The notes beneath the pieces were generated by a model. That model searched no databases, had not been told where the DNA came from, and was given only the letters and a program-made list of their open reading frames with translations. Positions 15,001 through 50,093 of a DNA stretch of 64,000 nucleotides are shown piece by piece; position 1 is the stretch's first letter, and every line of letters starts with the position of its first letter. Position numbers and translations under genes: made by a program. Source of the stretch: Streptomyces sp. HSG2 (GTDB lineage Bacteria; Actinomycetota; Actinomycetes; Streptomycetales; Streptomycetaceae); NCBI RefSeq assembly GCF_016598575.1, contig NZ_CP066801.1, positions 4,278,001 through 4,342,000 of the forward strand, read 5' to 3'.

Positions 15001-15788
<788 letters not shown>

Positions 15789-15792
<4 letters not shown>

Positions 15793-17045
15793 CACAGCTG
15801 CCGGGCCTCCTCGACACCGAGACGATCCGCAAGGACTTCCCGATCCTGGATCGCCGGGTCCACGACGACAAGAAGCTCGTCTACCTCGACAACGCCGCCA
15901 CCTCGCAGACCCCGCGCCAGGTCATCGACGCCGTCAGCGAGTACTACGAGCGGTACAACGCCAATGTCCACCGCGGCGTGCACGTGCTCGCGGAGGAGGC
16001 CACGGCGCTGTACGAGGGCGCTCGGGACAAGGTCGCGGAGTTCGTCAACGCCCCCAGCCGCGACGAGGTGATCTTCACCAAGAACGCCTCGGAGTCGCTC
16101 AACCTGGTGGCGAACATGCTGGGCTGGGCCGACGAGCCCTACCGGGTGGACTCCGACACGGAGATCGTCATCACGGAGATGGAGCACCACTCCAACATCG
16201 TGCCGTGGCAGTTGCTGGCCCAGCGGACCGGAGCGAGGCTGCGGTGGTTCGGGCTCACCGACGACGGCCGCCTGGACCTGGCCGACCTGGACCAGGTCAT
16301 CACCGAGAAGACGAAGATCGTCTCCTTCGTCCTGGTCTCCAACATCCTGGGCACCCAGAACCCGGTCGAGGCGATCGTGCGGCGCGCCCAAGAGGTCGGT
16401 GCCCTGGTCTGTGTCGACGCCTCGCAGGCGGCTCCGCACATGCCGTTGGACGTGCAGGCGCTGGGCGCCGACTTCGTGGCCTTCACCGGCCACAAGATGT
16501 GCGGCCCGACGGGTATCGGCGTGCTCTGGGGGCGCCAGGAACTGCTGGAGGACCTCCCCCCGTTCCTGGGCGGCGGCGAGATGATCGAGACGGTCTCGAT
16601 GCACTCCTCGACCTACGCCCCGGCGCCCCACAAGTTCGAGGCCGGTACCCCGCCGGTCGCGCAGGCCGTCGGCCTCGGCGCGGCCGTCGACTACCTGCGC
16701 TCCGTGGGTATGGACAAGATCCTCGCCCATGAACACGCCCTCACCGAGTACGCGGTGGAACGCCTGACCGCTATCCCGGACCTGCGCGTCATCGGCCCCG
16801 CCACGGCCGAGGAACGCGGGGCCGCGATCTCCTTCACCCTGGGTGACATCCACCCGCACGACGTGGGGCAGGTGCTCGACGAGCAGGGCATCGCCGTGCG
16901 GGTCGGGCACCACTGCGCTCGCCCGGTCTGCCTGCGCTACGGAATTCCCGCGACCACCCGGGCGTCGTTCTATCTGTACTCCACACCGGCGGAGATCGAC
17001 GCCTTGGTCGACGGCCTGGAGCACGTACGGAACTTCTTCGGCTGA
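15789..17045 (+). CDS. sufS: Cysteine desulfurase SufS
   Basis: PLP enzyme of the group II cysteine desulfurases that mobilises sulfur from cysteine for SufU. It has 418 residues. The PLP lysine is in FTGHKMCGPTGIG near residue 236 and the catalytic cysteine in RVGHHCARPVC near residue 374. The start is GTG 15789, coupled to sufC; sufU follows after 16 bases. The order sufS-sufU is the Gram-positive arrangement in which SufU accepts the persulfide. Confidence 0.97.
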
Positions 17046-17061
17046 CGGGACGAGCGATCGT

Positions 17062-17532
17062 ATGAAACTGGATTCCCTGTACCAGGACGTCATCCTGGAC
17101 CACTACAAGAATCCGCACGGGCGCGGGCTCCGGGAGGGCGACGCGGAGGTGCACCACACCAACCCCACGTGTGGTGACGAGATCACCCTCAGGGTCAGGT
17201 ACGACGGCACCACGGTGGCCGACGTCTCCTACGAGGGGCAGGGCTGCTCGATCAGTCAGGCCTCCGCCTCCGTGCTCAACGAGCTGCTGGTCGGCAAGGA
17301 CCTCGCCGCGGCACGGCGGATCCAGGAGACCTTCCTGGAACTGATGCAGTCCAAGGGCCGGGTAGAACCCGACGAGGCGATGGAGGGCGTGCTGGAGGAC
17401 GCGGTGGCCTTCGCCGGGGTCTCCAAGTACCCCGCGCGGGTGAAGTGCGCCCTGCTCAGCTGGATGGCCTGGAAGGACGCGACGGCCCAGGCGCTCGACG
17501 AGGGCGCCGGAGCCGAGAAGGAGACGACATGA
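17062..17532 (+). CDS. sufU: Zinc-dependent sulfur-transfer protein SufU
   Basis: A 156-residue IscU-like protein that accepts sulfur from SufS in Gram-positive bacteria. The three ligand cysteines lie in NPTCGDEITL, EGQGCSISQAS and ARVKCALLSW; the aspartate next to the first is the usual zinc ligand. The region between the second and third cysteines is longer than in IscU, which marks SufU. ATG 17062 follows the sufS stop by 16 bases. The stop overlaps sufT as ATGA. Confidence 0.96.
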   Translation: MKLDSLYQDVILDHYKNPHGRGLREGDAEVHHTNPTCGDEITLRVRYDGTTVADVSYEGQGCSISQASASVLNELLVGKDLAAARRIQETFLELMQSKGRVEPDEAMEGVLEDAVAFAGVSKYPARVKCALLSWMAWKDATAQALDEGAGAEKETT

Positions 17533-17861
17533 GCGAGACCGTCGAGATGAAGCCCGCCTCGGAGGAAGAGGTACGCGAGGCGCTGATGGACGTCGTCGAC
17601 CCGGAACTGGGTATCGACGTCGTCAACCTGGGTCTGATCTACGGCATCCACGTGGACGACGCGAACATCGCGACCATCGACATGACCCTCACCTCGGCGG
17701 CCTGTCCGCTGACGGACGTGATCGAGGACCAGGCCAAGTCCGTCACGGACGGGCTGGTCGGCGAGTTGCGGATCAACTGGGTCTGGATGCCGCCGTGGGG
17801 CCCCGACAAGATCACCGATGATGGTCGGGAGCAGTTGCGGGCGTTGGGCTTCAACGTCTGA
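17529..17861 (+). CDS. sufT: SufT/MIP18-family metal-sulfur cluster protein (DUF59)
   Basis: A 110-residue DUF59 protein. Seen: the characteristic DPELGIDVVNLGLIY block and TLTSAACPLTDVI with the conserved cysteine. Relatives (SufT, PaaD, MIP18) act in Fe-S maturation. It is the last gene of the operon, overlaps sufU by four bases, and is followed within 20 bases by a strong hairpin. Confidence 0.93.
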   Translation: MSETVEMKPASEEEVREALMDVVDPELGIDVVNLGLIYGIHVDDANIATIDMTLTSAACPLTDVIEDQAKSVTDGLVGELRINWVWMPPWGPDKITDDGREQLRALGFNV

Positions 17862-30964: not shown

Positions 30965-33007
30965 ATGATGATGACATGGACACGCCGTTCCCTCGCCCTT
31001 CTCGCCCTGCTGCTGGCGGCGGTGCTGGCCGGTATTCCCGCCGCGTCGGCGCACGAGGAGCGCGAGGTCGGCTTCCCCGACGGCACCGGCAGCGTGCCCG
31101 AGTACCGGGAAGGCGAGCCCGACCTGGTGGTGTGCAAGACGGACAAGGCCGCCTTCGAACAGCGCGTCGCCAAGTTCCCCGAGGAACTGCGCGCCCGCAA
31201 CCTCGCGCTCTACGAGAGATGCGCCCGGGAGGGGTTTCGCCACATCCAGCAGGCCGTGGACGCGGTGGACCGCCCCGGGATGTCGATCGCCGTGCTGCCG
31301 GGTCGCTACGAGGAGGAGCCCTCGCAGCCGGAGCCCACCGGGGCCTGCGCCCGACTGGACGCTCCCCGCGCCTCGCTCGGCTACCAGGTGCTGACGTTCG
31401 ATCAACAGAAGCGGTGCCCGCACAACCAGAACCTCGTCGCGATCCTGGGCAAACGCGACCTGCAGATCGAGGGCACCGGAGCGGACCCGCTCGACGTCGT
31501 CGTGGACGCGGGATACCGGAAGCTGAACGCCGTGCGGGCCGACTCCTCCGACGGCGTCTACTTCCGCAACTTCACCGCCCAGCGGACCACGTTCAACTCC
31601 CTCTACGTTCTGGCGACCGACGGGTTCGTCATCGATCGGGTCCTCACCCGATGGAACGACGAGTACGGCTTTCTGACCTTCGCCAGCGACCACGGCCTCT
31701 ACCGGGACTGCGAGTCCTACGGCAACGGGGACTCGGGCATCTACCCCGGCAGCGCCTCCGACATCAACGACGGTCGGGGCTACGAGGTGCCGCGCTACTC
31801 CATCGAGATCACCGGTTGTCGCAGCCATCACAACCTGCTGGGCTACTCCGGCACCGCCGGAGACTCGGTGTGGGCCCACGACAACGAGTTCGACCACAAC
31901 ATGGCCGGCGCCTCCATGGACAGCGTCTTCCCCGGCCATCCCGGACTCCCCCAGAACCACGCTCGGTTCGAACGCAACCTCATCCACGACAACAACGAGG
32001 ACTACTACCACCACATCGCCGACGGCACCTGCGCCAAGCCGCCCGCCGAACGAGGCTACGAACAGGGGGTGGTCTGCCCCCAGACGTCGGTCCCACCGGG
32101 CACCGGTGTCATGATCGCCGGCGGCAACTGGAACCTCTTCGAGGACAACTGGGTGTACGGGAACGACCGTACCGGCTTCCACCTCAACGCGGTCCCCGCC
32201 TTCATCCGCGGCGACGAGACCTGGTCCAAGCAGACCGACACATCCCACCACAACCGCTTCCACGGCAACCGGCTCGGGATCACCGAGGACGGCGCCGCCC
32301 GCCCCAACGGCACCGACTTCTGGTGGGACGGCCAGGGCCGAGGCAACTGCTGGCAGGAGACCGAAGGCGGCAGCGACCCCCACACCCTGCCCCGGTGCGG
32401 GGACCGGCCCGGCTCGCTCTCCGGTGGATCCCACCGTCTTCTCGGCGAGCCGGTGAAGACCGCTCAGCTCCTGGTCTGCTCCGACTACAGCGCCGGGGCA
32501 CGGCGACTGCCCGCCGGCTGCGACTGGTACGGGGCACGCGGCTTCGAACGGGTGGAGGTGCAGATCGCCTTGGGGGCCGCCGCCGTGCTCGGCCTCGTGG
32601 GCGGGGTGTTGTGGTGGCGGAGGCTTCGCGAGCACCGTTGGGCCACCCTGGCCGCGGCGGCGGGCGCTCTCGGGCTCGCCCTCGACGTCGCGGGGGAGAC
32701 GATCCCCCTGTCGACGACACTCGTCCCGCCCCTCGCCCTGTTGTTGATCGGAGCCTGGTGGACCGTGACGGGACTCGCCCTGCGGCGGCGGAGCCCGGGC
32801 TTCGGCTGGACGACCACCGCGCTCGGACTGCTGACCCTCCTCGACGCCTTCGACCAGGCCGTCGTGATGCTCCCCTGGACTCCGGTGAGCCCGGCCTGGA
32901 TGCGCGGTCTGCTCGGCCTGGTCTGGGTGGTCTGGGCGGTCGCCGCGGCGGCTCGACGACCGGCCGCCGTCACCGAGGCCCCCACCCCGGCGCGGAGCGC
33001 GACGTGA
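30965..33007 (+). CDS. Exported parallel beta-helix protein with C-terminal membrane anchor
   Basis: A 680-residue protein. The start has three ATGs in a row (30965, 30968, 30971), followed by a signal peptide (RRSLALLALLLAAVLAGIPA, cleavage after ASA). Residues about 80-470 are a right-handed parallel beta-helix of the NosD/pectate-lyase fold with repeated N-x-Y/F and H/N-x-x-D turns (FRNFTAQRTTFNSLYV, YRDCESYGNGDSGIYPGSAS, NHARFERNLIHDNNEDYYHH). Residues about 530-670 hold four membrane helices. No pectate-lyase catalytic pattern is clear. It overlaps the next gene by GTGA and heads a three-gene cassette. Confidence 0.85.
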   Translation: MMMTWTRRSLALLALLLAAVLAGIPAASAHEEREVGFPDGTGSVPEYREGEPDLVVCKTDKAAFEQRVAKFPEELRARNLALYERCAREGFRHIQQAVDAVDRPGMSIAVLPGRYEEEPSQPEPTGACARLDAPRASLGYQVLTFDQQKRCPHNQNLVAILGKRDLQIEGTGADPLDVVVDAGYRKLNAVRADSSDGVYFRNFTAQRTTFNSLYVLATDGFVIDRVLTRWNDEYGFLTFASDHGLYRDCESYGNGDSGIYPGSASDINDGRGYEVPRYSIEITGCRSHHNLLGYSGTAGDSVWAHDNEFDHNMAGASMDSVFPGHPGLPQNHARFERNLIHDNNEDYYHHIADGTCAKPPAERGYEQGVVCPQTSVPPGTGVMIAGGNWNLFEDNWVYGNDRTGFHLNAVPAFIRGDETWSKQTDTSHHNRFHGNRLGITEDGAARPNGTDFWWDGQGRGNCWQETEGGSDPHTLPRCGDRPGSLSGGSHRLLGEPVKTAQLLVCSDYSAGARRLPAGCDWYGARGFERVEVQIALGAAAVLGLVGGVLWWRRLREHRWATLAAAAGALGLALDVAGETIPLSTTLVPPLALLLIGAWWTVTGLALRRRSPGFGWTTTALGLLTLLDAFDQAVVMLPWTPVSPAWMRGLLGLVWVVWAVAAAARRPAAVTEAPTPARSAT

Positions 33008-33840
33008 CGGTCCGGCGGGCGGCGCTCGCCCGCCGGACGATGGCGTGCGCGGCGACGATCGGGACCCTCGCCGCGCTCTGCGTGTCCTGCGTCGACCGCC
33101 CCGAGACTCACCACCCCGAGGGCACCGGCCACCAGGTGGCCACCGGCCGGGTCGGGACCCTGTTGCCCGCGGAGGACGGCGACGGCGGCGGGACGTTGCG
33201 CCAGGTGCCGGAGGACCAGGCCCCGGGCGTGGAGCTGACGGTGCGCCCCGACGCCGTGGACGGGTGGACCGTGACCCTGGACGTCACCCGGTTCCGTTTC
33301 ACGCCCGACAGTGTCGGAGGCGCGGCCGTCCTGGGGGCCGGCCACGCCCATCTGCTGGTCGACGGGGAGAAGGTGGCCCGCCTGTACGGGCGGTGGCACC
33401 ACCTGCCCGAACGGGACGTCCCGCCCGGCGCCCGGACCCTCACCGCACGACTCGTGGCCGACGACCACACCGCGTGGGCGGTGCGAGGTCGGCCCGTGGA
33501 GGACAGCACCCCCCTGCCCGGGGCGGCCGAGGGCGACACCCGCCCGAGGGACCCCACGCCCTCGGGCGAGCCGGCGGCCGAGCGAACGTTGGAGATCACC
33601 GTCACGGACGGCCGGGTCACGCCGGCGCCCGGGCGCGTGGACCTGCGCAGGGGCCGGACGCTCACGCTGCGCGTCACCAGCGACACCGACGACGAACTCC
33701 ACGTCCACGGGATGGACCGGTCCGTTCCGTTGACCGCGGGACGTGCCGCAAGCCTCCGGGTGACGCCGGAGCGGACCGGACTGTTCGAGGTGGAGACCCA
33801 CCGCTCCCGGCTGGTGTTGACCCAGCTCGCGGTCCGATGA
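33004..33840 (+). CDS. Exported cupredoxin-like protein, possible lipoprotein
   Basis: A 278-residue exported protein starting at GTG 33004. The signal region ends TLAALCVSC; the lipobox is imperfect (CVSC), so a lipid anchor is only possible. An N-terminal beta domain has GAGHAHLLVDGEKVARLYGRW. The C-terminal 90 residues are cupredoxin-like (LEITVTDGRVTPAPGRVDLR, then HVHGMDRSVPL and FEVETHRSRLVLTQLAV). Histidines and a methionine are present but the copper-ligand cysteine of blue copper proteins is absent. It is coupled at both ends to its cassette neighbours (GTGA and ATGA). Confidence 0.78.
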   Translation: MTVRRAALARRTMACAATIGTLAALCVSCVDRPETHHPEGTGHQVATGRVGTLLPAEDGDGGGTLRQVPEDQAPGVELTVRPDAVDGWTVTLDVTRFRFTPDSVGGAAVLGAGHAHLLVDGEKVARLYGRWHHLPERDVPPGARTLTARLVADDHTAWAVRGRPVEDSTPLPGAAEGDTRPRDPTPSGEPAAERTLEITVTDGRVTPAPGRVDLRRGRTLTLRVTSDTDDELHVHGMDRSVPLTAGRAASLRVTPERTGLFEVETHRSRLVLTQLAVR

Positions 33841-35132
33841 CCCTCGCGGCACGGCTGGCACACGGAGTCGGCTCCCGGCACGACCTGCCCGTGTCCGCGT
33901 TCCACGCCTACGCCGGCGCGTTCGCCGCGCTCCTCTTCTCCTTCCTGGCGTTGGGACTCCTCTGGCCCGAGTCCCGGTACCGCGGCGATCACCCGGGCCG
34001 CCCACTCCCGGCCGCGCTGGGGAGGGCGGCCGACTCCGCGGTGCTCCGCCGCTTGCTGCGGGCGGCGGGGCTCCTCGCCGCCGCCGCCGTCCTGCTCCAC
34101 CTGTGGTTCGGAGCCGGCGACCCCGACCGCAACCCGGCTCCCGGTGCCGTCTACGTGCTGCTCTGGTGCGGACTGATCCCGGCCTCCCTGCTCCTGGGCC
34201 CGGTCTGGAGCCTCCTCAACCCGCTGCGCACGCTGCACGCCCTGGCCTGCCGAATCCTGCGCCGGCCGGGTGAGGGAGCCCGTCCCGACCTGGCCCGTAG
34301 GCTGGGCCACTGGCCCGCCGCGGCCGGCCTGCTGGTCTTCACCTGGCTCGAACTCGCCTCGCCGGACCCGACCTCCCCCCTCGTGCTGTCCACCTTCCTG
34401 TTGGGATACGCGGCCGTGCAGCTGACCGGAGCGGCCGTCTGCGGGCGTGGCTGGTTCGAGCGGTGCGACGCGTTCGAGGTGTACTCGGCGCTCCTCGGCA
34501 GGCTGTCCCCGCTCGGCCGCGCGCCGAACGGACGGCTCGTCCTGCGCGGCCCGCTCCACCGGCTCGCCGGCACGCCGCCGGTCCCCGGACTGGTCGCCGC
34601 GGTCTGCGTCCTGTTGGGAGGAACCATGTACGACGGTGTCTCGGGGACGCCGTCCTGGACGGCCGCCCTCCAGACCTCCCCGCTGGGCCGCACCGGCACG
34701 GCCACTGTCGGCCTGCTGGCCACGACGGCGGGCGTCGCCCTGCTCTACCTCGCCGCGGCCGGGGCCGTCGGATTGATCGCCGGCCCCGTGGCGCGGCCGG
34801 TCGCGGCGTTCGCGCACTCGCTGGTGCCCATCGTCGCCGGGTACCTCGTCGCCCACTACTTCACCCTGCTGACCACCGAGGGCCCCCGCACCGTGGCCTT
34901 GGCCTTCGGCGGCGACGGCGGGTCGGCCGCCCCCGACCCGCCGTTGTCGCCCGGAGGGGTCGCGACGCTTCAGGTCACCGCCGTCGTCCTGGGGCACGTG
35001 CTCGGGGTCGTGGCCGCGCACGACCGGGCCGTGCGGTCGCTCCCGCCGTCGCGCGCGGTCGCCGGCGGTGTCCCCCTGCTGATGGCCATGGTCTGCTACA
35101 CGCTCGGCGGCATCCGGCTCCTCGTCGCCTGA
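33837..35132 (+). CDS. Polytopic membrane protein of the beta-helix cassette
   Basis: A 431-residue integral membrane protein with about ten hydrophobic helices (for example YAGAFAALLFSFLALGLLW, GLIPASLLLGPVWSLLNPL, LLATTAGVALLYLAAAGAVG, LVPIVAGYLVAHYFTLL). Polar intramembrane residues include GPVWSLLNPLRTLH, FERCDAFEVYSALLGRLSPL and HSLVPIVAGYLVAHYF with histidines that could bind metal or heme. No transporter family is certain. It starts inside the preceding gene (ATGA). Its stop is only 17 bases from the convergent penicillin-binding protein stop. Confidence 0.78.
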   Translation: MTLAARLAHGVGSRHDLPVSAFHAYAGAFAALLFSFLALGLLWPESRYRGDHPGRPLPAALGRAADSAVLRRLLRAAGLLAAAAVLLHLWFGAGDPDRNPAPGAVYVLLWCGLIPASLLLGPVWSLLNPLRTLHALACRILRRPGEGARPDLARRLGHWPAAAGLLVFTWLELASPDPTSPLVLSTFLLGYAAVQLTGAAVCGRGWFERCDAFEVYSALLGRLSPLGRAPNGRLVLRGPLHRLAGTPPVPGLVAAVCVLLGGTMYDGVSGTPSWTAALQTSPLGRTGTATVGLLATTAGVALLYLAAAGAVGLIAGPVARPVAAFAHSLVPIVAGYLVAHYFTLLTTEGPRTVALAFGGDGGSAAPDPPLSPGGVATLQVTAVVLGHVLGVVAAHDRAVRSLPPSRAVAGGVPLLMAMVCYTLGGIRLLVA

Positions 35133-37923: not shown

Positions 37924-38814
37924 CTAGCGCACCGGGGTGAAGTCCCGCGCGCCGATGAACTCGGGTCGGCGGACGGGAGCGGCGAAGGGCTCGACCGCGG
38001 TGTTCTCCACGCTGTTGAACACGATGAAGACGTTGCTGCGGGGGAACGGCGTGATGTTGTCGCCGGACCCGTGCATGCAGTTGCAGTCGAACCAGGTCGC
38101 CGAGCCCGGCTTGCCGGTGAAGAGCCGGATGCCGTGCTCGCTCGCCATCTCGGTCAGCGCCTCGTCGGAGGGCGTGCCCGCGTCCTGCATCCGCAACGAC
38201 TTCTTGTAGTTGTCCTCGGGTGTCGCGCCGGCGCACCCGAGGAACGTCTTGTGCGAGCCCGGCATGATCATGAGCCCGCCGTTGGTGTCGTGGTTCTCCG
38301 TCAGGGCGATGGAGACCGAGACGGTGCGCATCCGGGGGAGCCCGTCCTCGGCGTGCCAGGTCTCGAAGTCCGAGTGCCAGTAGAAACCACTGGCCCCGAA
38401 GCCGGGCTTGACGTTGATCCTGGACTGATGCACGTAGACGTCCGAGCCGAGGATCTGCCGTGCTCGCCCCACCACCCTCTCGTCGCGCACCAGTTTCGCG
38501 AACACCTCGCTGATCCGGTGCACCTCGAAGACGGAACGGATCTCCTTGGAGCGCGGCTCCACGATCGAGCGCTCGTCGGCCCGGGTCGTGGGGTCGGTGA
38601 CGAGCCGGTTCAGCTCGTCGTGGTAGACGGCGACCTCGTCATCGGTGATCAACTGATCGATGGCGAGGAAGCCGTCGCGCTCGAAGGACCGAAGGTCGCC
38701 GGGCGCGATCGGCCCGGGCGCGTCGGGCGCGCCCCAGACGACCGGGTCCTGCCGGGGCGTGGTCACCTCTGAGGTGCCACGGCTGGGGTAGAGATCGGTG
38801 ACGGTCGCGGTCAC
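37924..38814 (-). CDS. ectD: Ectoine hydroxylase
   Basis: Fe(II)/2-oxoglutarate dioxygenase that converts ectoine to 5-hydroxyectoine. The 296-residue length is normal. The EctD signature FYWHSDFETWHAEDGLPRMR contains the HxD metal ligands, and the second histidine is in NCMHGSGDN. The start is taken as GTG 38814 (VTATVTDLYPS), with GAGGAGG ten bases upstream inside the end of ectC; an in-frame GTG nine bases earlier is too close to that site. It is the last gene of ectABCD and is followed by a strong hairpin. Confidence 0.96.
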   Translation of the reverse strand: MTATVTDLYPSRGTSEVTTPRQDPVVWGAPDAPGPIAPGDLRSFERDGFLAIDQLITDDEVAVYHDELNRLVTDPTTRADERSIVEPRSKEIRSVFEVHRISEVFAKLVRDERVVGRARQILGSDVYVHQSRINVKPGFGASGFYWHSDFETWHAEDGLPRMRTVSVSIALTENHDTNGGLMIMPGSHKTFLGCAGATPEDNYKKSLRMQDAGTPSDEALTEMASEHGIRLFTGKPGSATWFDCNCMHGSGDNITPFPRSNVFIVFNSVENTAVEPFAAPVRRPEFIGARDFTPVR

Positions 38815-38819
38815 GGTCC

Positions 38820-39218
38820 TCACACCTCCTCGGTGAGCAGAGGGTAGACGCCGTTCTCGTCGTGGTCCTCCCGTCCGGTGACGGGCGGGTTGAACACGCA
38901 GATGCAGCGGAAGTCCTGTTTCACACGGAGGGTGTGCCTCTCGTGTCCGTCCAGGAGGTACATGGTGCCGGGGGTGATGGTGTACGACCGGCCGGTCTCC
39001 CGGTCGGTCAACTCGGCTTCGCCCTCCACGCAGACGACGGCCTCGACGTGGTTCGCGTACCACATCGACGTCTCGGTCCCCGCGTACAGGACGGTCTCGT
39101 GGAGGGAGAAGCCGACCTTCTCCTTGGCGAGGACGATCCGCTTGCTCTCCCACGTGCCGGACGCTGACTTCACGTGCCGGTCGGTGCCTTCGATGTCCTT
39201 GAACGAACGGACGATCAC
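38820..39218 (-). CDS. ectC: L-ectoine synthase
   Basis: A cupin that cyclises N-gamma-acetyl-diaminobutyrate to ectoine. It has 132 residues and starts at GTG 39218 ([12 protein letters not shown]). Cupin-typical segments are [33 protein letters not shown] and [14 protein letters not shown]. It lies 5 bases before ectD and 64 bases after ectB. Confidence 0.97.
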
Positions 39219-39282
39219 GGTGTTGCGATGCCTCCTCGGTGAGTGGTGCGTTGCGGAACCGGCGGGCGGGGGCCCGCCGGGA

Positions 39283-40554
39283 TCAGGCGGTCTCGCGCAC
39301 GGCGCGGGCGAGGACCTTGAGGCCCTCGTCCAGCTCGTCGGGGGTGATGGTCAGGGCCGGGAGCAGCTTGACGACCTCGCTCTCCGGACCCGAGGTCTCG
39401 ATCAGGAGCCCCAGCTCGAACGCGCGCTTGGCGATCTTCCCGGCGCGCTCCTTGTCGTGGAACTCCAAGCCGCGGACGAGACCGCGACCCCGGTACTCCT
39501 TGACGTCGGCGAGATTCTCCTCGGTGATGGCGATCAGGTGCTGCTCGACCTGCTCGCCGCGTGCGCGGGTCTGCTTCTCCATCGCCGACCCGTCGGCCCA
39601 GTAGGTCTCCAGCGTGGCGGTGGCGGTCACGAAGGCCGGGTTGTTGCCGCGGAAGGTGCCGTTGTGCTCGCCCGGCTCCCAGACGTCCAGTTCGGGCTTG
39701 AACAGCGTCAGCGACATCGGCAGTCCGTAGCCGCTGATCGACTTGGACACGGTGACGATGTCCGGCGTGATGCCGGCCTCCTCGAAGGAGAAGAACGCCC
39801 CGGTACGACCGCAGCCCATCTGGATGTCGTCGACGATGAGCAGCATGTCCTGGCGCGCGCACAGGTCGGCCAGGGCCCGCAGCCACTCGACCCGGGCCAC
39901 GTTGATGCCGCCCTCGCCCTGCACCGTCTCGACGATCACGGCGGCCGGCTTGTTCAGGCCGGAGCCCTGGTCCTCCAGGAGTCGCTCGAACCAGAGGAAG
40001 TCCTCGACGGTGCCGTCGAAGTAGTTGTCGAACGGCATCGGCGTGCCGTGGACCAGGGGGATGCCGGCGCCGGCCCGCTTGAAGGCGTTGCCGGTCACCG
40101 CGAGCGAGCCCAGCGACATGCCGTGGAAGGCGTTGGTGAAGGAGACGATGGCCTCGCGCCCCTTGACCTTGCGCGCCAGCTTCAGCGCGGACTCCACGGC
40201 GTTGGTGCCCGTCGGGCCGGGGAACATGACCTTGTACGGAAGGTCGCGGGGGCGCAGGACGAGGTTCTGGAACGTCTCCAGGAAGCGCCGCTTCGCGGTC
40301 GTGGACATGTCCAGACCGTGAGTGACGCCGTCCCGCTCCAGGTAGTCGATCAGCGCCCGTTTCAGCACCGGGTTGTTGTGGCCGTAGTTGAGGGACCCGG
40401 CTCCCGCGAAGAAGTCGAGGTACTCGTGGCCGTCCTCGTCGTACATGCGGCTGCCGTGTGCGCGGTCGAAGACTGTGGGCCAGCCACGGCAGTAGCTGCG
40501 CACCTCGGACTCCAGGGTCTCGAAGACGCTCAGGTCGGGCTGGGTGATGGTCAC
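39283..40554 (-). CDS. ectB: L-2,4-diaminobutyrate transaminase
   Basis: PLP aminotransferase that makes 2,4-diaminobutyrate from aspartate semialdehyde, the first ectoine step. It has 423 residues. The aspartate that contacts PLP is in [15 protein letters not shown] and the lysine in [12 protein letters not shown]. The motif [16 protein letters not shown] near residue 111 is typical of class III aminotransferases. The start is GTG 40554 with GAGGAG nearby. Confidence 0.97.
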
Positions 40555-40640
40555 GACGAATCGCTCCTCGTTGCGTGAGGTTCGGTGAGTGGGAGGTCGT
40601 TGGGGCCGGGAGCCGGGTCGGCGGCGTCACCGGCGTGGTC

Positions 40641-41153
40641 TCAGGCGACGCGGCGCAGCGGGCCGATGCGGTACAGCACCTCGGGGTCGTGCGGGGCGTC
40701 GGGGAAAAGACCGGTGTCGAAGAGCACCTCGCGCTCCAGGGGGGCGTCGTGACGCTCGGCGAAGGCGGTGAAGAGTCGTTCGGACGGGGCGTTGCCGGGA
40801 GAGATGGTGGTCTCCACCGTCAGCGGCGCCCGGCCGGCGGCGACGCGGGCGACGAGTCCGTCGAGCAGGGAGGCCGCGAGCCCACGCCCACGGTACGCCT
40901 CGTCCACCGCGACCTGCCACACGAGCAAGGTGTCCGGCCGCTCCGGGCGGAGGTAGCCGGTCATGAATCCCACCGGCGCGCCCCGCTCGTCACGGGCCAC
41001 CGCCGACGTGGCGGCGAAGTCCCGGCACCACAGCAGGTAGCTGTAGGACGAGTTGAGGTCGAGGGTCTTGGAATCCCTGGCTATCCGCCACAGCGCGGCG
41101 CCGTCCGCCACCTTCGGACGATCGATTTGTAGGTCTGCTTGCGCGGCAGTCAT
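40641..41153 (-). CDS. ectA: L-2,4-diaminobutyrate N-acetyltransferase
   Basis: GNAT acetyltransferase for the second ectoine step. It has 170 residues starting MTAAQADLQIDRPKVADGAA. The acetyl-CoA loop is YRGRGLAASLLDGL. The start at ATG 41153 has no Shine-Dalgarno sequence; a TAAATT element ends 8 bases before the ATG, so a leaderless transcript is possible. It is the first gene of the leftward ectABCD operon. A longer in-frame start at 41279 adds residues without family character. Confidence 0.95.
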   Translation of the reverse strand: MTAAQADLQIDRPKVADGAALWRIARDSKTLDLNSSYSYLLWCRDFAATSAVARDERGAPVGFMTGYLRPERPDTLLVWQVAVDEAYRGRGLAASLLDGLVARVAAGRAPLTVETTISPGNAPSERLFTAFAERHDAPLEREVLFDTGLFPDAPHDPEVLYRIGPLRRVA

Positions 41154-42906: not shown

Positions 42907-43983
42907 TCAGGCCGTTTCGAAGTCCGTCAGGACCGTGCGCAGCGCGAGCGCCAGGGCGTCGGTGACGTCGCCGCCCCGCACCGCCACGCGCAGCCATTCC
43001 GGGCCCAGCCCGGGGAAGGTGTCCCCGCGACGCACCGCGAATCCGCGGGCGCGCAGCCGGCGACGGACGTCCGCGCCCCGGTCCAGCCGGAGCAGGACGA
43101 ACGGTGCCTCGGCGGGCGCCACCACCCGCAGGCCCTCCGGCGCGAACTCCTCCAGCGCGGCGACGAGCCGGGCGCGGTCGACGGCGGTCCGTCGGGCGGC
43201 GCGCTCCGCCTCCGCCAGGGCCTCCGGTCTCACGCACGCCTCCGCCGCGACCAGAGCGGGGGTGGACACCGGCCACAGCGGTTGCGCGCCCGCCAGCTCC
43301 GCCACGATCTCGGGCGCGGCCAGCAGATAGCCGACGCGAAGTCCGGCCAACCCCCACGTCTTGGTCAGGCTCCGCAGGACCACGAGTCCGGGGACGTCGG
43401 TCCGGCCCGCGAGGGATTCTCGCTCGCCGGGCACCGCGTCCATGAACGCCTCGTCCACGACGACGGTCCGCCCGGGCCGGGCCAGGGACGCCACCACGTC
43501 GGCCGGATGCAGCACCGAGGTCGGGTTCGTCGGGTTGCCCAGCACCACCAGGTCCGCGTCGGGCGGCACGGAGGCGGGGTCCAGCCGGAACCCGTGCTCC
43601 GCACGGAGGAGCACCCGCTCCACGCCGTGCCCGGCGGCCCGCAGTGCCACCTCCGGCTCGGTGAACTGGGGGTGCACCACGACCGGCCGGCGAAACCTCG
43701 GCACCCGGGCCAGCAGGACGAAGGCCTCCGCCGCCCCCGAGGTCAACAGGACCCGCTCCGGGGGAAGCCCGTGTCGCGCGGCCACCGCCGCGCGGGCGGC
43801 CCGGTCGTCCGGATAGGCGGCGAGCGCGCCGAGCGAGGCGGCGACGCGTTCCCGGAGCCACCCCGGAGGTGTGCCCGCGCGGACGTTCACCGCCAGGTCG
43901 ACCAGGCTCGCCCCGTCGTCCCGGACCTCGGCGTCCCCGTGGTGAGCGAGGTCCGGGGCCTGATCCCGCCCCTCAGTGCGCAT
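42907..43983 (-). CDS. cobC: CobC/CobD-type PLP aminotransferase (threonine-phosphate decarboxylase-like)
   Basis: PLP enzyme of 358 residues at the 3' end of the cob operon. The PLP lysine is in LRSLTKTWGLAGLRVGYLL near residue 210 and the aspartate in VVVDEAFMDAVPG. Family members decarboxylate threonine phosphate to the aminopropanol unit of B12; the related histidinol-phosphate aminotransferases are excluded only by context. ATG 43983 overlaps the CbiX end by 11 bases. A serine/threonine kinase partner is not adjacent. Confidence 0.85.
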   Translation of the reverse strand: MRTEGRDQAPDLAHHGDAEVRDDGASLVDLAVNVRAGTPPGWLRERVAASLGALAAYPDDRAARAAVAARHGLPPERVLLTSGAAEAFVLLARVPRFRRPVVVHPQFTEPEVALRAAGHGVERVLLRAEHGFRLDPASVPPDADLVVLGNPTNPTSVLHPADVVASLARPGRTVVVDEAFMDAVPGERESLAGRTDVPGLVVLRSLTKTWGLAGLRVGYLLAAPEIVAELAGAQPLWPVSTPALVAAEACVRPEALAEAERAARRTAVDRARLVAALEEFAPEGLRVVAPAEAPFVLLRLDRGADVRRRLRARGFAVRRGDTFPGLGPEWLRVAVRGGDVTDALALALRTVLTDFETA

Positions 43984-44878
43984 GAGAAGGCACGCCGTGC
44001 CCGTGCCCGTGATGGTGTCCGTCGTCGTCCGGGTGGAAGTGGGGGCGCTGCGGCATCCCCACCTTGTCCTCGAAGCCCGGCAGGGCGATCCGGTAGACGC
44101 AGCTGTCGCAGTTCATCCGCAGGTCGCCGGCGACGGCCTCCTCGTACCGCTCCCACACCAGGTCGAGGAGTTCGGGTTCCGGGCCGATGACGTCCGCCGA
44201 GCGGACCTCGATCCCGGTCCGCTCGGCGGCCCACTCGCCGGTCTGCCGCCTCACCCGCTCCGGGAGGATCCCGGTGAACAGGAAGTAGGGCAGTACCACG
44301 ATCCGACGGGCGCCGAGCCGGGCGCACCTCTCCAGCCCCCCGGGCACGTCCGGCTCCGCCAGCGAGACGAACGCCGTCTCCACTCCCGCGTATCCGCGTC
44401 CCTCCCACAGCAGTCGGGCGGCCTTGTGCACCTCGGCGTTGGCGTCCGGATCGGTGGAACCGCGCCCCACCAGCAGCACGGTGGTCTCGGCACGGTCCCA
44501 GGAGGGGTCGGCCGCCTCCGCGATCCGCCGCTCCAGGACGCGCAGCAGCGCGGGGTGCGGACCGAGGGGGCGCCCGTAGGCGTAAGAGATCCCCGGGTGG
44601 CGGTCGCGCTCACGCGAGAGCGCCGCGGGGATGTCGCCCTTGGCGTGCCCGGCGGACACCAGCATCAACGGCACGGCGGCGAAGCGGCGGACCCCGCGCT
44701 CGACCAGCTCGGCCACGGCGTCGCCGAGCGGCGGCGGGGACAGCTCGATGAAGCCGCCGGCGACGGGCAGTTCGGGATGGCGGCGTCCCAACTCCTCGAC
44801 GAAGCGCCGGAACGCGTCGGCGCCGGCCTCGTCCCGGGTGCCGTGGCCGGCGATGAGCAGGGCGGGCGAAGCGGTCAC
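43973..44878 (-). CDS. cbiX: CbiX-type sirohydrochlorin chelatase with Cys motif and His-rich tail
   Basis: A 301-residue chelatase with two fused CbiX modules. The metal histidines are in AGHGTRDEAG and VSAGHAKGD; the second module has LLVGRGSTDPDAN. The C-terminus carries MNCDSCVYR, an MxCxxC motif that binds a Fe-S cluster in characterised CbiX proteins, then a histidine-rich tail (HHHGHGHG). It may insert cobalt or iron into sirohydrochlorin. GTG 44878 overlaps cobH as GTGA with GAGGAG upstream. Confidence 0.9.
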   Translation of the reverse strand: MTASPALLIAGHGTRDEAGADAFRRFVEELGRRHPELPVAGGFIELSPPPLGDAVAELVERGVRRFAAVPLMLVSAGHAKGDIPAALSRERDRHPGISYAYGRPLGPHPALLRVLERRIAEAADPSWDRAETTVLLVGRGSTDPDANAEVHKAARLLWEGRGYAGVETAFVSLAEPDVPGGLERCARLGARRIVVLPYFLFTGILPERVRRQTGEWAAERTGIEVRSADVIGPEPELLDLVWERYEEAVAGDLRMNCDSCVYRIALPGFEDKVGMPQRPHFHPDDDGHHHGHGHGVPSHAH

Positions 44879-45471
44879 GGATTCTCCTCGGACGACGTGA
44901 CGGACAGGGGGTGGTAGAGCAGGGCGTTGAGAGCGGCGGCGGCCACCGCCGACCCGCCCTTCTCGGACACGTTGCTGACGGCGGGCAGCCCGCTCTCGCG
45001 GAGCGCCGCCTTCGATTCGGCCGCTCCGACGAAGCCGACGGGCAGTCCGACGACCAGGGCGGGCGCGGCGTCCAGCCGCAGTAGCTCCTCGAGGGCCGTC
45101 GGGGCGCAGCCGATCACCCACAGGGCGCCGGGGCCGACCTCCTCGTGGGCGAGTCGGACGGCGTGGGCCGAGCGGGTCAGGCCGGGTGCGGCACGGGCCC
45201 GACCGAGGCGGCACACCGTCTCCCGGCGGGTGATGCCGGCGGCGACCATCTCCACGTCCACCACGACCGGAGCGCCGGCGTGCAGCGCCGCGTGCGCCTT
45301 CACCAGCGTGCGCTCGTCCAGGACGAGGTCGTCGGCGTAGGCCGGATCGGCCGTCGCGTGGATGACGCGCTCGACCACGGCCCGGGTCAGCGGAGCCAGG
45401 CCGGAGGTGTCCAACCGGGCGCGCAGCCTGCGGAAGGACTCCACCTCGATCGGATGCACCACCCGGTTCAT
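44875..45471 (-). CDS. cobH: Precorrin-8X methylmutase
   Basis: Shifts a methyl group from C11 to C12 to form hydrogenobyrinic acid. It has 198 residues, close to the family norm. The N-terminal motif VIHATADPAYADDLV contains the catalytic histidine; GALWVIGCAPTALEELL and VSNVSEKGGSAVAAAA are typical. ATG 45471 overlaps cbiG-cobJ (ATGA). Confidence 0.94.
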   Translation of the reverse strand: MNRVVHPIEVESFRRLRARLDTSGLAPLTRAVVERVIHATADPAYADDLVLDERTLVKAHAALHAGAPVVVDVEMVAAGITRRETVCRLGRARAAPGLTRSAHAVRLAHEEVGPGALWVIGCAPTALEELLRLDAAPALVVGLPVGFVGAAESKAALRESGLPAVSNVSEKGGSAVAAAALNALLYHPLSVTSSEENP

Positions 45472-47165
45472 CGCGTCACCTCCGGCCGCTGCCAGCGGTA
45501 GCCGCGCGGCGTCACCATCCGGCCCGCGATCTCGCGGGTGGCGGAGTTGCCGACGGTCACCACCGTCAGCATGTCCACCACGGTCGGGTCGACCTCGGCC
45601 AGCGTCGTCAGCAGGCTGCTCTCGTCCGCGCGCGAGGCGTTGCGCACGACACCGACGGGCGTGGTCGGCGCCCGGTGCGCGGCGAGGACGGCCAGGGCCC
45701 TGGTCAGATGCCGGTCCCGGCCTCGGCTGCGCGGATTGTAGAAGGTCACCACGAGGTCGGACTCGGCCGCCGCCCGTACCCGGCGCTCGATGACCTCCCA
45801 CGGCGTGTGCAGGTCGGACAGGCTCACGGAGACGTGATCGTGTCCGAGCGGGGCCCCCAGGACGGCGCTCGCCGCCAGTGCGGCCGTCACGCCGGGCACC
45901 CCCACCACGTCGATGTCGTCGCCGGCCTCGGCCAGCGCGGGCGACGCCATGGCGTACACCCCCGCGTCGCCGCTGCCGATCAGCGCGACGGCGTGACCGC
46001 GCCGGGCCTCGGAGACGGCGGCCCGCGCCCGCTCCTCCTCGGCTCCCAGGCCCGACGCGAGGACCCGGGTGCCGGGACGCAGCAGGTCCCGGATCTGGTC
46101 CACGTACTGGTCGAGACCGACCAGCACCGACGCCCCGCGCAGTTCCGCGACCGCCCGAGGGGTCAGCAGGTCCCGGGCGCCCGGGCCGAGTCCCACCACC
46201 GCCAGCCGACCGCGTACCGGCCGGCGTGCCACGGCACAGGTCGCCCGGGCGGGAGATCCGTCGGCCCGCACCGACCGGCGCTTGGGCACCAGCAACTCGC
46301 CGCCGTCGACCAGCGCGGCGGCCTCCGCGACGGAGGGGGTGCCCACGGCGGCCAGCGGAGCCCGGGACGGGTTGGGCACCGCTACGCGCGCGAGGGTCTC
46401 GGCGGGGTGGGCGACCAGGGGAACCCCCATTCGCTCGGCCGCGGCGACGATCCCCGCCTCGTCGGCCTTGGCATCCACCGTCGCCAGCGCCGCGACGGAC
46501 GCCGCCGCGAGACCCGCCTCCCGCAGGGCGGCCTCGACGAGCGCGGTGACCTCGTCCTCCGAAACCCCACGGGAGGCGCCGACGCCGACGACGAGGGACG
46601 GCGGACGGAGGACGACCTCCCGCGCGGTCGGCCGCACCAGGCGATCCGTCGACCTGATGGTGTACTCGCCCGCCTCGGCCACCGGCAGGGGCGGCAAGGG
46701 CCACGGCGTGTCCACCGCCAGCGCGACGGGCTCGCCGTCCAACAAGGCCCGGGACACCGCGGCGAGGTCTCCCTCGACGGGCAGCCCGAGCGTGTCCAGT
46801 CCCGGCAGGCCCGCCGCGTCGGTGGCCGTGGTGATCACGGGTTCGGCACCGAGCACCGCCCCCACCTCGCCCGCCAACGCGTTGGCGCCGCCGCCGTGTC
46901 CGCCGAGCAGCGACACCGCGAACCTCCCCGCCTCGTCCACACAGACCACGCCGGGATCGGAGCGCTTGTCCGAGAGCAGCGGCGCCACCATCCGCACCAC
47001 GGCACCGGTGGCCAGGAAGCACACCAGCCCCTCGCACTCCGCGAACGCGGTCCGCACCGCGCCGGCGACGTCGCCCTTGTACACGCGGGTCCGGTCCGGC
47101 CAGGCGGCGGCCAACCGGTCCCGCGCCGCGGTGCCCGCGGCGGTGGCGGAAATCAGGCCGATCAC
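45468..47165 (-). CDS. cobJ: CbiG-CobJ fusion (precorrin-3B C17-methyltransferase)
   Basis: A 565-residue two-domain protein. Residues about 1-320 are CbiG-like (VIGLISATAAG, LVCFLATGAVVRMVAPLL, LLGGHGGGANALA and a C-terminal VGVGASRGVSEDEV domain). Residues about 340-565 are the SAM-dependent ring-contraction methyltransferase (LAVVGLGPGARDLLTPRAV, GSGDAGVYAMAS, VTFYNPRSRGRDRHL). CbiG acts in the oxygen-independent path, so its fusion to CobJ in an aerobic-type operon is notable. The start is GTG 47165 (GTGA with cobL). Confidence 0.93.
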   Translation of the reverse strand: MIGLISATAAGTAARDRLAAAWPDRTRVYKGDVAGAVRTAFAECEGLVCFLATGAVVRMVAPLLSDKRSDPGVVCVDEAGRFAVSLLGGHGGGANALAGEVGAVLGAEPVITTATDAAGLPGLDTLGLPVEGDLAAVSRALLDGEPVALAVDTPWPLPPLPVAEAGEYTIRSTDRLVRPTAREVVLRPPSLVVGVGASRGVSEDEVTALVEAALREAGLAAASVAALATVDAKADEAGIVAAAERMGVPLVAHPAETLARVAVPNPSRAPLAAVGTPSVAEAAALVDGGELLVPKRRSVRADGSPARATCAVARRPVRGRLAVVGLGPGARDLLTPRAVAELRGASVLVGLDQYVDQIRDLLRPGTRVLASGLGAEEERARAAVSEARRGHAVALIGSGDAGVYAMASPALAEAGDDIDVVGVPGVTAALAASAVLGAPLGHDHVSVSLSDLHTPWEVIERRVRAAAESDLVVTFYNPRSRGRDRHLTRALAVLAAHRAPTTPVGVVRNASRADESSLLTTLAEVDPTVVDMLTVVTVGNSATREIAGRMVTPRGYRWQRPEVTR

Positions 47166-48397
47166 GCGGCGACTCCTTCTCTGGGGGAGCGGGGCCGGGA
47201 GCCCCACAACACGAACACGGGGTTGGCGGCCGCGAGTCGGGTCACCTCGCCGGGGAGCGGCGCCAACCGGGAGGACTGCAACAGCACCCCGTCGCACTCC
47301 CAACCGGCGTCGGACAGCGCCGCCCGCGCGGCGGGCACCCGGTCGAGAGCGGCCAGCCCCACGACGACCGCCCGGCGGGCCCGCCGGGCGCACTCGGCGA
47401 CGACGGCCGGCAGATCCCGCCCGCCGCCCCCGACGAACACCGCGTCCGGGTCGTCCAGATCGGCCAGCGCCCGAGGAGCCGATCCGCGGACCACCCGCAC
47501 GTCGACGCCGTGCGCGGCGGCGTTGGCACGCACGCGTTCGACGCCGTCCTCGGCGCGCTCCACGGCGACGGCGGCGGCACCGAGCCGCGCGCACTCCACG
47601 GCGACCGAACCCGAGCCCGCGCCGACGTCCCACACCAGGTCGCCCGGCCGGGGGCCGAGTCGGGCCAGCGCCAACGCCCGCACCTCGAACTTGGTGATCA
47701 TCGAGTCGCGGTGGGCGAACGCGGACTCCTCCAGCGCCCATCCCGCCGGTCCAGGGCCGACCCCCGCGACACTCCTCGCCCGGCCGGACGACCGCGCCTC
47801 GTCCAGGCACAACACCACGCTCACCTCGGGCCCCCAGTCGCGGGCGGCGGCGCGCTCGGGCGTGGTCCGCTCCACCCGCTCACCGGCCGTGCCGAGCGCG
47901 GTCGCCACGATCAGCGTCCGGGCATGCCCGCGCAGCGCGGCGCCCAACTCCGCGGGGCCGGCGCCCGGTCCGGTGAGCACCGCCACCTTGGGGTGGGCCC
48001 GGCACAGGTTCACCGCCGTTCGGGGGTCGCGGCCGTGGGCGCTGGCGACGATCGCGTCGTCCCACGACAGCCCGAGCCGGGCGAAGGCGGCGGCGACGGA
48101 CGACACTCCGGGGCTCACGTCGAGCGCCGTCGGGCCGAAACGTTCCGCCAGCGCTCGCGCGATGCCGAAGAACCCGGGGTCCCCGGAAGCCAGGACCACC
48201 ACAGGGCGCCCCCGGGTCACGTACCGTCCGATGGTCTCCAGTGCCGGGGCCAACGGTCCGAGGACCAGGGTGCGCGCCCCCGCGGGCGGCCGTGCGGCGG
48301 CCAGGTGCCGCCGGGCGCCCACGACCAGGGCGGCGTCGCCGAGCGACTCCGACGCGGGGGGCGCGCCGTCGGCCCCCACGCCGACGACGCGGATCAT
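47162..48397 (-). CDS. cobL: Precorrin-6Y C5,15-methyltransferase (decarboxylating)
   Basis: A 411-residue bifunctional enzyme. The N-terminal CbiE domain has LVLASGDPGFFGIARAL and DVSPGVSSVAAAFARLGL. The C-terminal CbiT domain begins near MITKFEVRALALARL and has the SAM motif VWDVGAGSGSVAVEC. It methylates C5 and C15 and removes the C12 acetate carboxyl. ATG 48397 overlaps cobM by ATGA, and the stop overlaps cobJ. Confidence 0.95.
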   Translation of the reverse strand: MIRVVGVGADGAPPASESLGDAALVVGARRHLAAARPPAGARTLVLGPLAPALETIGRYVTRGRPVVVLASGDPGFFGIARALAERFGPTALDVSPGVSSVAAAFARLGLSWDDAIVASAHGRDPRTAVNLCRAHPKVAVLTGPGAGPAELGAALRGHARTLIVATALGTAGERVERTTPERAAARDWGPEVSVVLCLDEARSSGRARSVAGVGPGPAGWALEESAFAHRDSMITKFEVRALALARLGPRPGDLVWDVGAGSGSVAVECARLGAAAVAVERAEDGVERVRANAAAHGVDVRVVRGSAPRALADLDDPDAVFVGGGGRDLPAVVAECARRARRAVVVGLAALDRVPAARAALSDAGWECDGVLLQSSRLAPLPGEVTRLAAANPVFVLWGSRPRSPREGVAA

Positions 48398-49212
48398 CCG
48401 CTCGCCCCCCGTTCCCTCAGCTCCCGGCGGGCCCGCGGGTCGGCCCTGCGGTGTCCGTGGAAGTGACCCGGGTGGTACAGGTGGGACCGGGTGCCGTGGG
48501 CGGCCAGCGCCGGTCCGACCAGGAAGAGCGTGTGCTTCCACAGACGATGCTCCTTGACCGTCTCCTCCAGTGTGGCGACCGTGCACGTGACGACCAGTTC
48601 GTCGGGCCAGGTCGCCCGGTGCGCGACGACCACCGGCGTGTCGGTCGGGTAGCCGCCCTCCAGGAGTTCCCGCACCAGTTGACCGCTGCGAGCGGCGGAG
48701 AGGAAGACCGCCATCGTCGTCCCGTGCCGAGCGAACGCGCGGACCTCCTCGCCGGCGGGCATCGGCGTCTTGCCCCCGCCGAGCCGCGTCAGCACGACCG
48801 ACTGGGCCACCTCGGGAATCGTCAACTCCCTTCCGGCCAGGGCGGCGACCGCGGAGAAGGCGGAGACACCGGGGACGATCTCGATGGGGACGCCGATCTC
48901 CGCGCACCGGTCCGCCTGCTCCTGGGTGCCGCCCCACAGCGCCGGATCGCCGGAGTGCACACGCGCGACCCGCAGCCCGCGCTCGCGCGCCCGGCGGTAG
49001 ACGGCCACGACGTCCTCCAGGGACATCACGGCGGAGTCCAGGATCTCGGCGTCCTCGCGGGCGTGCTCCAGGACGTCCTCGTGGACCAGGCTCGCCGCCC
49101 AGATGACGATGTCGGCCTCGGCGATGGCCCGGGCCGCGCGGAAGGTCAGCAGGTCGGCGGCACCGGGGCCGGCGCCGACGAAGGTCACCTTGCCACCGGG
49201 GGTGTGGGCCAT
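48394..49212 (-). CDS. cobM: Precorrin-4 C11-methyltransferase
   Basis: SAM-dependent methyltransferase of 272 residues starting MAHTPGGKVTFVGAGPGAADLLT, with VHSGDPALWGGTQEQ and EIVPGVSAFSAVAALAG. ATG 49212 has a moderate purine site (GAGAGAGGA, nine bases). An in-frame GTG at 49365 overlaps the cobI stop as GTGA and would add 51 Pro/Ser/Arg-rich residues; the shorter form matches the family. The C-terminus ends in a His/Arg-rich tail (HPGHFHGHRRADPRAR). Confidence 0.94.
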   Translation of the reverse strand: MAHTPGGKVTFVGAGPGAADLLTFRAARAIAEADIVIWAASLVHEDVLEHAREDAEILDSAVMSLEDVVAVYRRARERGLRVARVHSGDPALWGGTQEQADRCAEIGVPIEIVPGVSAFSAVAALAGRELTIPEVAQSVVLTRLGGGKTPMPAGEEVRAFARHGTTMAVFLSAARSGQLVRELLEGGYPTDTPVVVAHRATWPDELVVTCTVATLEETVKEHRLWKHTLFLVGPALAAHGTRSHLYHPGHFHGHRRADPRARRELRERGASG

Positions 49213-49293
49213 GCGTCGGGGTCCTCTCTCGGGGGTGGGATGTCGCGGGGAGGTCGGGGAGGGGTCCGCCGACGGCATCGACGCGTCCGGGGC

Positions 49294-49316
49294 GGGGGAG
49301 GGGCGTGCCCCCTCCC
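49294..49316 (-). terminator. GC hairpin in the cobI-cobM gap
   Basis: GGGAGGGGC and GCCCCCTCCC pair around two bases (one unpaired C) in the only sizeable gap of the cob operon, 149 bases between the cobI stop and cobM ATG. It may be an attenuator or simply part of the cobM leader if translation begins at 49365. Confidence 0.35.
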
Positions 49317-49361
49317 GGGAAGGGTCGACCGCCCCCGGACGCTCGCGGGGCTCCGAAGGGG

Positions 49362-50093
49362 TCACAGCTTGCCGCCCCTTCCGCCGCCCCGGGGGGCGGG
49401 GGCGATGAGCGTCGACAGGTACGGCAGCTCCGTGTCGCCGATCTCGGCCGCCGGGTGGATCGACTCCTCGGGGAGACCGAGAGCGGAACCCCAGACGGCT
49501 CCCTCCACACGTCCGGTCGCCCGCAGCGCCTCGGCCACCTCGGCCGCCTGCCTGCCGAACTTGTAGGCGACGACCGTGCCCGGCCCTTCCAGCGCCCGCC
49601 TGAGCACCTCGGTACCGGCGGTCACGGGCACCAGGGTCAACGGTTCGGTGCCCTCGGTCAGCACCGCGCCGGAGCGCGCCGCCAGATCCTGCATGGCGGT
49701 CACCCCGGGGACCGTCTCGACGCGGGTGCCGGGCAACGAGCGGACGACGGTCTGCGCCAGGTAGGTGAACGTCGAGTACACGTTGGGGTCGCCGATGGTG
49801 GCGAAGGCGACGGTGCCCCGCGACCGCAGCAGGTCCGCCACCCGCGTGCCCGCCGCGTCCCAGGCGGCCTCCCGGCGGGCCCGGTCGGTGCGCTCGTTCA
49901 GCGCGAACACCACCCGTAGGACCTTCTCCTCGGGGACGTAGTGCCGCACGGTCGCCTCGGCACGTCCTCGTTCGCCGGAGTCCATCACGGGCACCACGAC
50001 GACTCGGGCCGCGCGCAGCGCCTCGACCCCCTTCACCGTCACCAGCTCCGGGTCCCCGGGTCCCACACCGACCCCGACCAGCACGTTGCTCAC
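49362..50093 (-). CDS. cobI: Precorrin-2 C20-methyltransferase
   Basis: SAM-dependent methyltransferase of 243 residues. Typical segments are LVGVGVGPGDPELVTVKGVE, VAFATIGDPNVYSTFTYL and ETVPGVTAMQDLAARSG. GTG 50093 overlaps the cobB stop (GTGA). The C-terminal 10 residues are Gly/Arg-rich (APRGGGRGGKL). Confidence 0.95.
   Translation of the reverse strand: MSNVLVGVGVGPGDPELVTVKGVEALRAARVVVVPVMDSGERGRAEATVRHYVPEEKVLRVVFALNERTDRARREAAWDAAGTRVADLLRSRGTVAFATIGDPNVYSTFTYLAQTVVRSLPGTRVETVPGVTAMQDLAARSGAVLTEGTEPLTLVPVTAGTEVLRRALEGPGTVVAYKFGRQAAEVAEALRATGRVEGAVWGSALGLPEESIHPAAEIGDTELPYLSTLIAPAPRGGGRGGKL

Follow-up and report, generated by a model that had tools for sequence, protein, structure and literature searches.

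Two questions about copper are open: the route by which it arrives at the active sites of copper-containing membrane monooxygenases (CuMMOs), and the way in which Gram-positive bacteria move it outside the cell. Proteobacterial CuMMO operons include copC, copD and sometimes pCuAC, and the PmoD protein forms a CuA site in which Cys residues serve as ligands (PMC6189053). CupA has a Cys-based binuclear site and a P-type ATPase as its partner (PMC7558416). The present analysis concerns a cassette of three genes, whose products are called here P1, P2 and P3, in a stretch of 64,000 nucleotides of the chromosome of Streptomyces sp. HSG2 (the window, positions 4278001-4342000 of the 5.28 Mb chromosome G000). 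All three reading frames are open on the + strand and are found as the same three genes by a codon-usage gene caller: (i) P1 (30965..33007), an exported right-handed beta-helix protein of 680 residues with a C-terminal membrane domain, (ii) P2 (33004..33840, GTG start), a lipoprotein of 278 residues with an N-terminal metal-type domain and a C-terminal Cys-less cupredoxin domain, and (iii) P3 (33837..35132), a membrane protein of 431 residues with 10 transmembrane helices that belongs to an unnamed family. With moderate confidence, we consider this cassette to be an extracytoplasmic copper-handling module, analogous rather than homologous to the CopC-CopD and PCu(A)C-type systems.

The three genes form a co-retained and co-conserved cassette. 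A contig scan with P1, which is present in a single copy in the genome of the window, retrieved 80 loci, mostly from Streptomyces, with orthologues that are about 68-81% identical. P2 and P3 follow P1, with few exceptions, wherever the available flank is long enough, and the three proteins are conserved in about 70 complete loci. Among 169 Streptomyces genomes, 36 carry a cassette-type P1, 35 an orthologous P3 and 35 both (Fisher p 1.7e-35, not corrected for phylogeny), the lone genome with P1 and without P3 being an assembly of about 1770 contigs with 82% completeness. The cassette is thus kept in about a fifth of Streptomyces species. In 58-59 of 67 Streptomyces, it is located between a homogentisate dioxygenase gene and a TetR gene, and therefore its linkage there could be inherited synteny. 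The cassette is nevertheless intact, with flanks that differ, not only in the window but also in L015 and L016, its two closest relatives, and in loci from Nocardioides (L066) and Nonomuraea (L142), and it was found in at least four unrelated genomic contexts. In one genome (G012), a rearrangement has split it, leaving P1-P2 at 8.71 Mb and P3, flanked by transposase-like genes, at 7.82 Mb, and all three genes persist. An initial annotation made from the sequence alone had proposed that the genes are coupled by a GTGA overlap between the P1 stop and the P2 start (33004..33007, + strand) and an ATGA overlap between the P2 stop and the P3 start (33837..33840, + strand). Both overlaps are present in the sequence and recur in other loci as exact 4-bp overlaps (43 of 70 for P1-P2 and 37 of 69 for P2-P3), the other loci having intergenic spacings of mostly 150 bp or less; the 4-bp overlap is also frequent in P2-P3 pairs outside Streptomyces. 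The co-conservation is limited to the loci of Streptomyces, Nocardioides and Nonomuraea; beyond these, relatives of P1 are found in the absence of P2-P3, and P2-P3 pairs in the absence of P1.

P2 has a lipobox Cys29 and a THH motif that are conserved in its orthologues, and its AlphaFold2 model (predicted local distance difference test, pLDDT, of 83) consists of two beta domains. The second one (33571..33837, + strand, residues 190-278), delimited by profile, Foldseek and conservation, has invariant H233, H235 and E264, a H266 found in most relatives and no Cys. Although the single sequence scores just under the cut-off of Cupredoxin_1, a profile built from 28 relatives matches CuA domains in the PDB (E 7e-6), as well as nitrite reductase, nitrosocyanin and nitrous oxide reductase, and the model matches cupredoxins by Foldseek (E 4e-6). 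Structural similarities with a Z of about 11 link it to B. anthracis Cupredoxin_1 in its copper- and zinc-bound forms, to CupA and to nitrosocyanin. Profile, Foldseek and Z scores all place this domain in the cupredoxin superfamily, whereas the Cys and His (Met) ligands that type 1 and CuA sites carry in the C-terminal loop do not occur together in P2, for want of a Cys in the domain. P2 resembles CupA and Cupredoxin_1 as a membrane-anchored or exported Cys-poor cupredoxin, but its cupredoxin domain is Cys-free and its partner is P3. In the same way, it resembles PmoD/AmoD, a small exported cupredoxin encoded within CuMMO operons, but lacks the Cys ligands and is paired with P3.

The N-terminal domain of P2 (33220..33501, + strand, about residues 73-166), which displays GHAHL, WHHLP and DDH motifs, is absent from the P2 proteins of other genera. 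A Sulfitobacter protein combines an N-terminal PCu(A)C copper chaperone domain (Pfam, 4.7e-9) with a C-terminal part homologous to this P2 domain (E 3e-9 for P0002 and 1e-15 for the L086 orthologue). The gene of this fusion is divergent from a P3 gene on plasmids, an order that is kept in a second strain. P2 itself differs from the PCu(A)C chaperones by the absence of any PCu(A)C domain in a Pfam search, and it does not match CopC. Plasmids of alphaproteobacteria encode free-standing domains of this kind beside CbtA/CbtB and DUF1636. Given these neighbors, this is a domain of metal systems whose metal preference is uncertain. The CbtB-CbtA arrangement with DUF1636, in which the third protein, corresponding to this domain, is unnamed, was found in three loci (L207 5870-7312, L208 5891-7363 and L210 5843-7300).

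P3 is modeled by AlphaFold2 with ten transmembrane helices (pLDDT 82), and its N and C termini would both be outside according to the positive-inside rule. An alignment of 39 P3 proteins from three major groups shows H340, H387, H395 and M418 in every sequence, and the model places these residues within membrane helices. His9, which belongs to an AHG motif, is found in 35 of the 39 members, and in those that have a signal peptide (L133, L137, L138, L145 and L155), the AHG His comes right after the AxA site. By analogy, this residue and the putative first residue of mature P1, His30, may be likened to the His found at the N terminus of CopC and comparable copper proteins. The P3 family extends to Actinomycetota (73 of 396 sampled genomes), Alpha- and Betaproteobacteria and haloarchaea. 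Beyond isolated weak matches, none of the 39 members belongs to a Pfam or NCBIfam family; no PDB fold was retrieved at E < 0.001, and Foldseek and VIA-align gave middling helical matches only. In particular, P3 is not a CopD (PF05425), with no Pfam match in the 39 members and a hhalign P-value of 0.5 against an alignment of actinobacterial CopD, and the host genome carries its own CopD genes besides P3. The annotation as a fenitrothion hydrolase, which we take to be in use for this kind of protein, could not be confirmed. One Streptomyces encodes a second, divergent P3 without P1 or P2 (L123 6199-9494), whose neighbors, named by eye, are genes of a BlaI/CopY-type regulator, a metallopeptidase-like protein and a four-helix membrane protein. 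Furthermore, a membrane protein of about 610 residues without a Pfam family, possibly a further partner of P2-P3, is encoded directly 5′ of the pair in several actinobacterial chromosomes (L124 6192-8051, with relatives in L126, L127, L129, L130 and L197). Paracoccus Pden_4445, which is associated with a low-copper N2O phenotype (PMC7558416), is possibly a P3 protein.

The link with copper comes from the relatives of P2-P3. All five CuMMO loci found in Mycobacteriales have P2-P3 within 11 kb of the CuMMO genes. Four of them are on plasmids (NBB4, PH-06, Rhodococcus ZPP and WAY2), which are the only actinobacterial plasmid records with CuMMO genes, with P2-P3 located about 2 to 11 kb away. The P3 of PH-06 is only 38% identical to that of NBB4 and belongs to a different branch, so that the association probably arose at least twice. 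After the hypothesis had been formed, the search was extended beyond plasmids to 397 Mycobacteriales genomes, of which one is CuMMO-positive; its P3 gene is 2.4 kb from the CuMMO genes, in the contiguous order amoC-amoA-amoB-x-y-P2-P3 with no other genes in between. A CuMMO-positive genome contains a third, apparently disrupted P3 copy beside an intact CopC-like gene (L198 8255-9353). The position 3′ of amoCAB is the slot of copCD in proteobacterial operons (PMC6189053). P2-P3 thus resembles CopC-CopD (PcoC-PcoD, YcnJ) by the association of an exported beta-barrel copper protein with a polytopic membrane protein, by the coupling of their genes and by the proximity to CuMMOs, but P3 shows no detectable relation to CopD and P2 is a Cys-less cupredoxin that does not match CopC. 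Other mycobacterial pairs adjoin CopC, CtaG-like and TlpA-like genes, a Pseudonocardia pair is 3 kb from a galactose-oxidase-like gene, and haloarchaeal P3 genes adjoin a heavy-metal P-type ATPase gene or are near multicopper oxidase or plastocyanin genes. Overall, a cupredoxin gene is directly 5′ of the P3 gene in 23 of 29 loci outside Streptomyces. The initial annotation had described a cupredoxin-like P2 without the usual copper Cys and a polytopic P3 with intramembrane His, and had suggested metal or redox handling at the membrane. The profile and predicted structure of P2, and the ten helices and three invariant His of P3, bear out this description, and the CuMMO operons and the PCu(A)C fusion independently argue for metal handling, most likely of copper.

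Since relatives of P2 and P3 are encoded in clusters for CuMMOs, which oxidize hydrocarbons, the cassette probably serves in the capture or delivery of copper on the outside of the cell membrane. The most economical explanation, in which P2 captures copper and passes it on to P3, fits together the cupredoxin fold, the invariant His and Met, the place in CuMMO operons and the PCu(A)C fusion. P2 would be attached to the cytoplasmic membrane on its external side and bind copper through two regions, the His/Glu sites of the Cys-less cupredoxin domain and the His-rich N-terminal domain. It would then hand copper to P3, whose His/His/His/Met set in helices 8-10 could move it into or across the membrane or load a membrane or secreted cuproenzyme. 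P1, which is kept by all genomes with the cassette, would be an anchored beta-helix accessory, perhaps a wall-side collector or a docking scaffold. We infer copper as the metal used in Streptomyces, the direction of the transfer and the role of P1. Several observations weigh against such a copper function. No copper genes were found in the flanks of the approximately 80 Streptomyces loci, where the PCuAC matches are P2 itself and the usual neighbor is the homogentisate dioxygenase gene, and no copper-regulator operator was recognized 5′ of P1 by inspection by eye only. Many chromosomal P2-P3 pairs of actinobacteria have no recognized copper neighbor, three CuMMO loci from another actinobacterial family lack P2-P3, alphaproteobacterial P3 genes belong to catabolic clusters, for nicotinate or other compounds, that have no cupredoxin, and the P1 relatives of deep Actinobacteria have neither P2-P3 nor copper neighbors. 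The genome of the window itself does not encode any CuMMO.

A more far-reaching proposal, which we put forward only tentatively, is that P3 represents a new bacterial and archaeal family of copper transporters or cuproenzyme loaders that works with Cys-less cupredoxins and supplies the CuMMOs of Mycobacteriales, and that Streptomyces added a P1 collector to it, giving a three-part copper acquisition machine.

P3 could also be a redox or assembly factor rather than a transporter, with intramembrane His pairs that ligate heme or copper and with P2-P3 passing electrons to membrane or surface cuproenzymes or helping them mature; the invariant H340, H387, H395 and M418 do lie in membrane helices. 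The CuA electron-transfer domains among the profile matches of P2 and the presence of P2-P3 in a CuMMO operon, a setting in which the sources of both electrons and copper are not fully accounted for, are consistent with this role. However, P2 does not have the Cys residues that coordinate copper in CuA and type 1 sites and is thus unlikely to transfer electrons rapidly, and no heme-binding signature was recognized, which makes this explanation rather unlikely. We find it improbable that P3 serves catabolic clusters as a membrane protein of general use, in the uptake or conversion of an organic compound, and that its links with copper are incidental. Alphaproteobacterial P3 genes do occur in nicotinate and tannase/feruloyl esterase clusters, those of actinobacteria in hydrocarbon clusters, and most Streptomyces cassettes adjoin the homogentisate dioxygenase gene, but these catabolic neighbors have no substrate in common, and neither the frequency of a cupredoxin gene immediately 5′ of P3 outside Streptomyces nor the CopC and PCu(A)C neighbors fit with such a role. 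Finally, ferrous-iron uptake of the FtrABC/FetMP kind, with P2 as FtrB and P3 as the permease, is very doubtful: it would account for the combination of a cupredoxin with a membrane protein, for the presence of Brucella FtrB among the structures most similar to the P2 cupredoxin domain (Z 10.2) and for the P19-type protein of archaeal versions (a Haloferax P3 adjoins a protein with a Fe2+ transport, P19-like, domain), but none of the 39 P3 members matches the FTR1 iron permease in Pfam at E 0.1, no P19 gene was recognized beside those actinobacterial pairs that were examined, and in Mycobacteriales P2-P3 is found in clusters for copper enzymes.

In the favored reading of extracytoplasmic copper handling, the role of P1 is the weakest part, since its deep relatives have neither P2-P3 nor copper neighbors. 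P1 has a signal peptide (30965..31051, + strand; hydropathy peak at residues 9-27), whose putative cleavage would make His30 (HEER) the mature start; H30, E32 and R33 are invariant in 17 relatives, including deep-branching Actinobacteria. The beta-helix region (31442..32374, + strand, about residues 160-470) is defined by conservation, by the Pfam Beta_helix match (E 2.5e-9, residues 188-316) and by TIGR03805 (residues 166-413), the latter below its cut-off (27.4 versus 141.5 bits). The C-terminal membrane domain (32552..32950, + strand, about residues 530-662) shows three clear hydropathy peaks, including by eye a weaker fourth helix. It was seen only in cassette-type P1, as the deep relatives stop near residue 524 or bear other domains instead, and hhalign detected no relation to other small membrane proteins encoded near P3. 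Therefore, the beta-helix with C-terminal helices of the initial annotation is sustained, but not the suggested link with NosD: P1 scores below the NosD cut-offs of both Pfam (14.6 versus 23.6 bits, PF05048) and NCBIfam (11.2 versus 300, TIGR04247), and no nosF/nosY-type ABC genes are present among its called neighbors in the window. P1 thus shares with NosD of NosDFY a beta-helix outside the membrane and a copper theme, and differs from it by its own membrane domain. In two loci (L181 8092-11307 and L182 8089-11334), a P1-type beta-helix is apparently fused to cell-wall-binding type 2-like repeats and a C-terminal membrane helix, apparently a different mode of surface anchoring.

A TGAACAwTGCTCTACTCT element that resembles a leaderless promoter is strongly conserved a few bases 5′ of the P1 start in most Streptomyces loci (for example L053 and L030); it has diverged and is not recognizable in the window. 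The cassette has no PADLOC match to a defense system. Elsewhere in the window, genes named by eye only include a run resembling those of ectoine/hydroxyectoine (37924-41111; hydroxylase, synthase, aminotransferase and acetyltransferase), a cobalamin biosynthesis-like run (42907-50105; cbi/cob methyltransferases and others), which is not beside the cassette in other Streptomyces, and SUF-type Fe-S cluster assembly genes (15001-17861).

P3 has no name in Pfam, NCBIfam or the solved structures. It is a concrete and testable candidate because it is unnamed and widespread, has invariant intramembrane His and Met, and is encoded contiguously with amoCAB in one actinobacterial genome. Copper steers the development and secondary metabolism of Streptomyces, and therefore an additional copper system in these bacteria would matter for their physiology.

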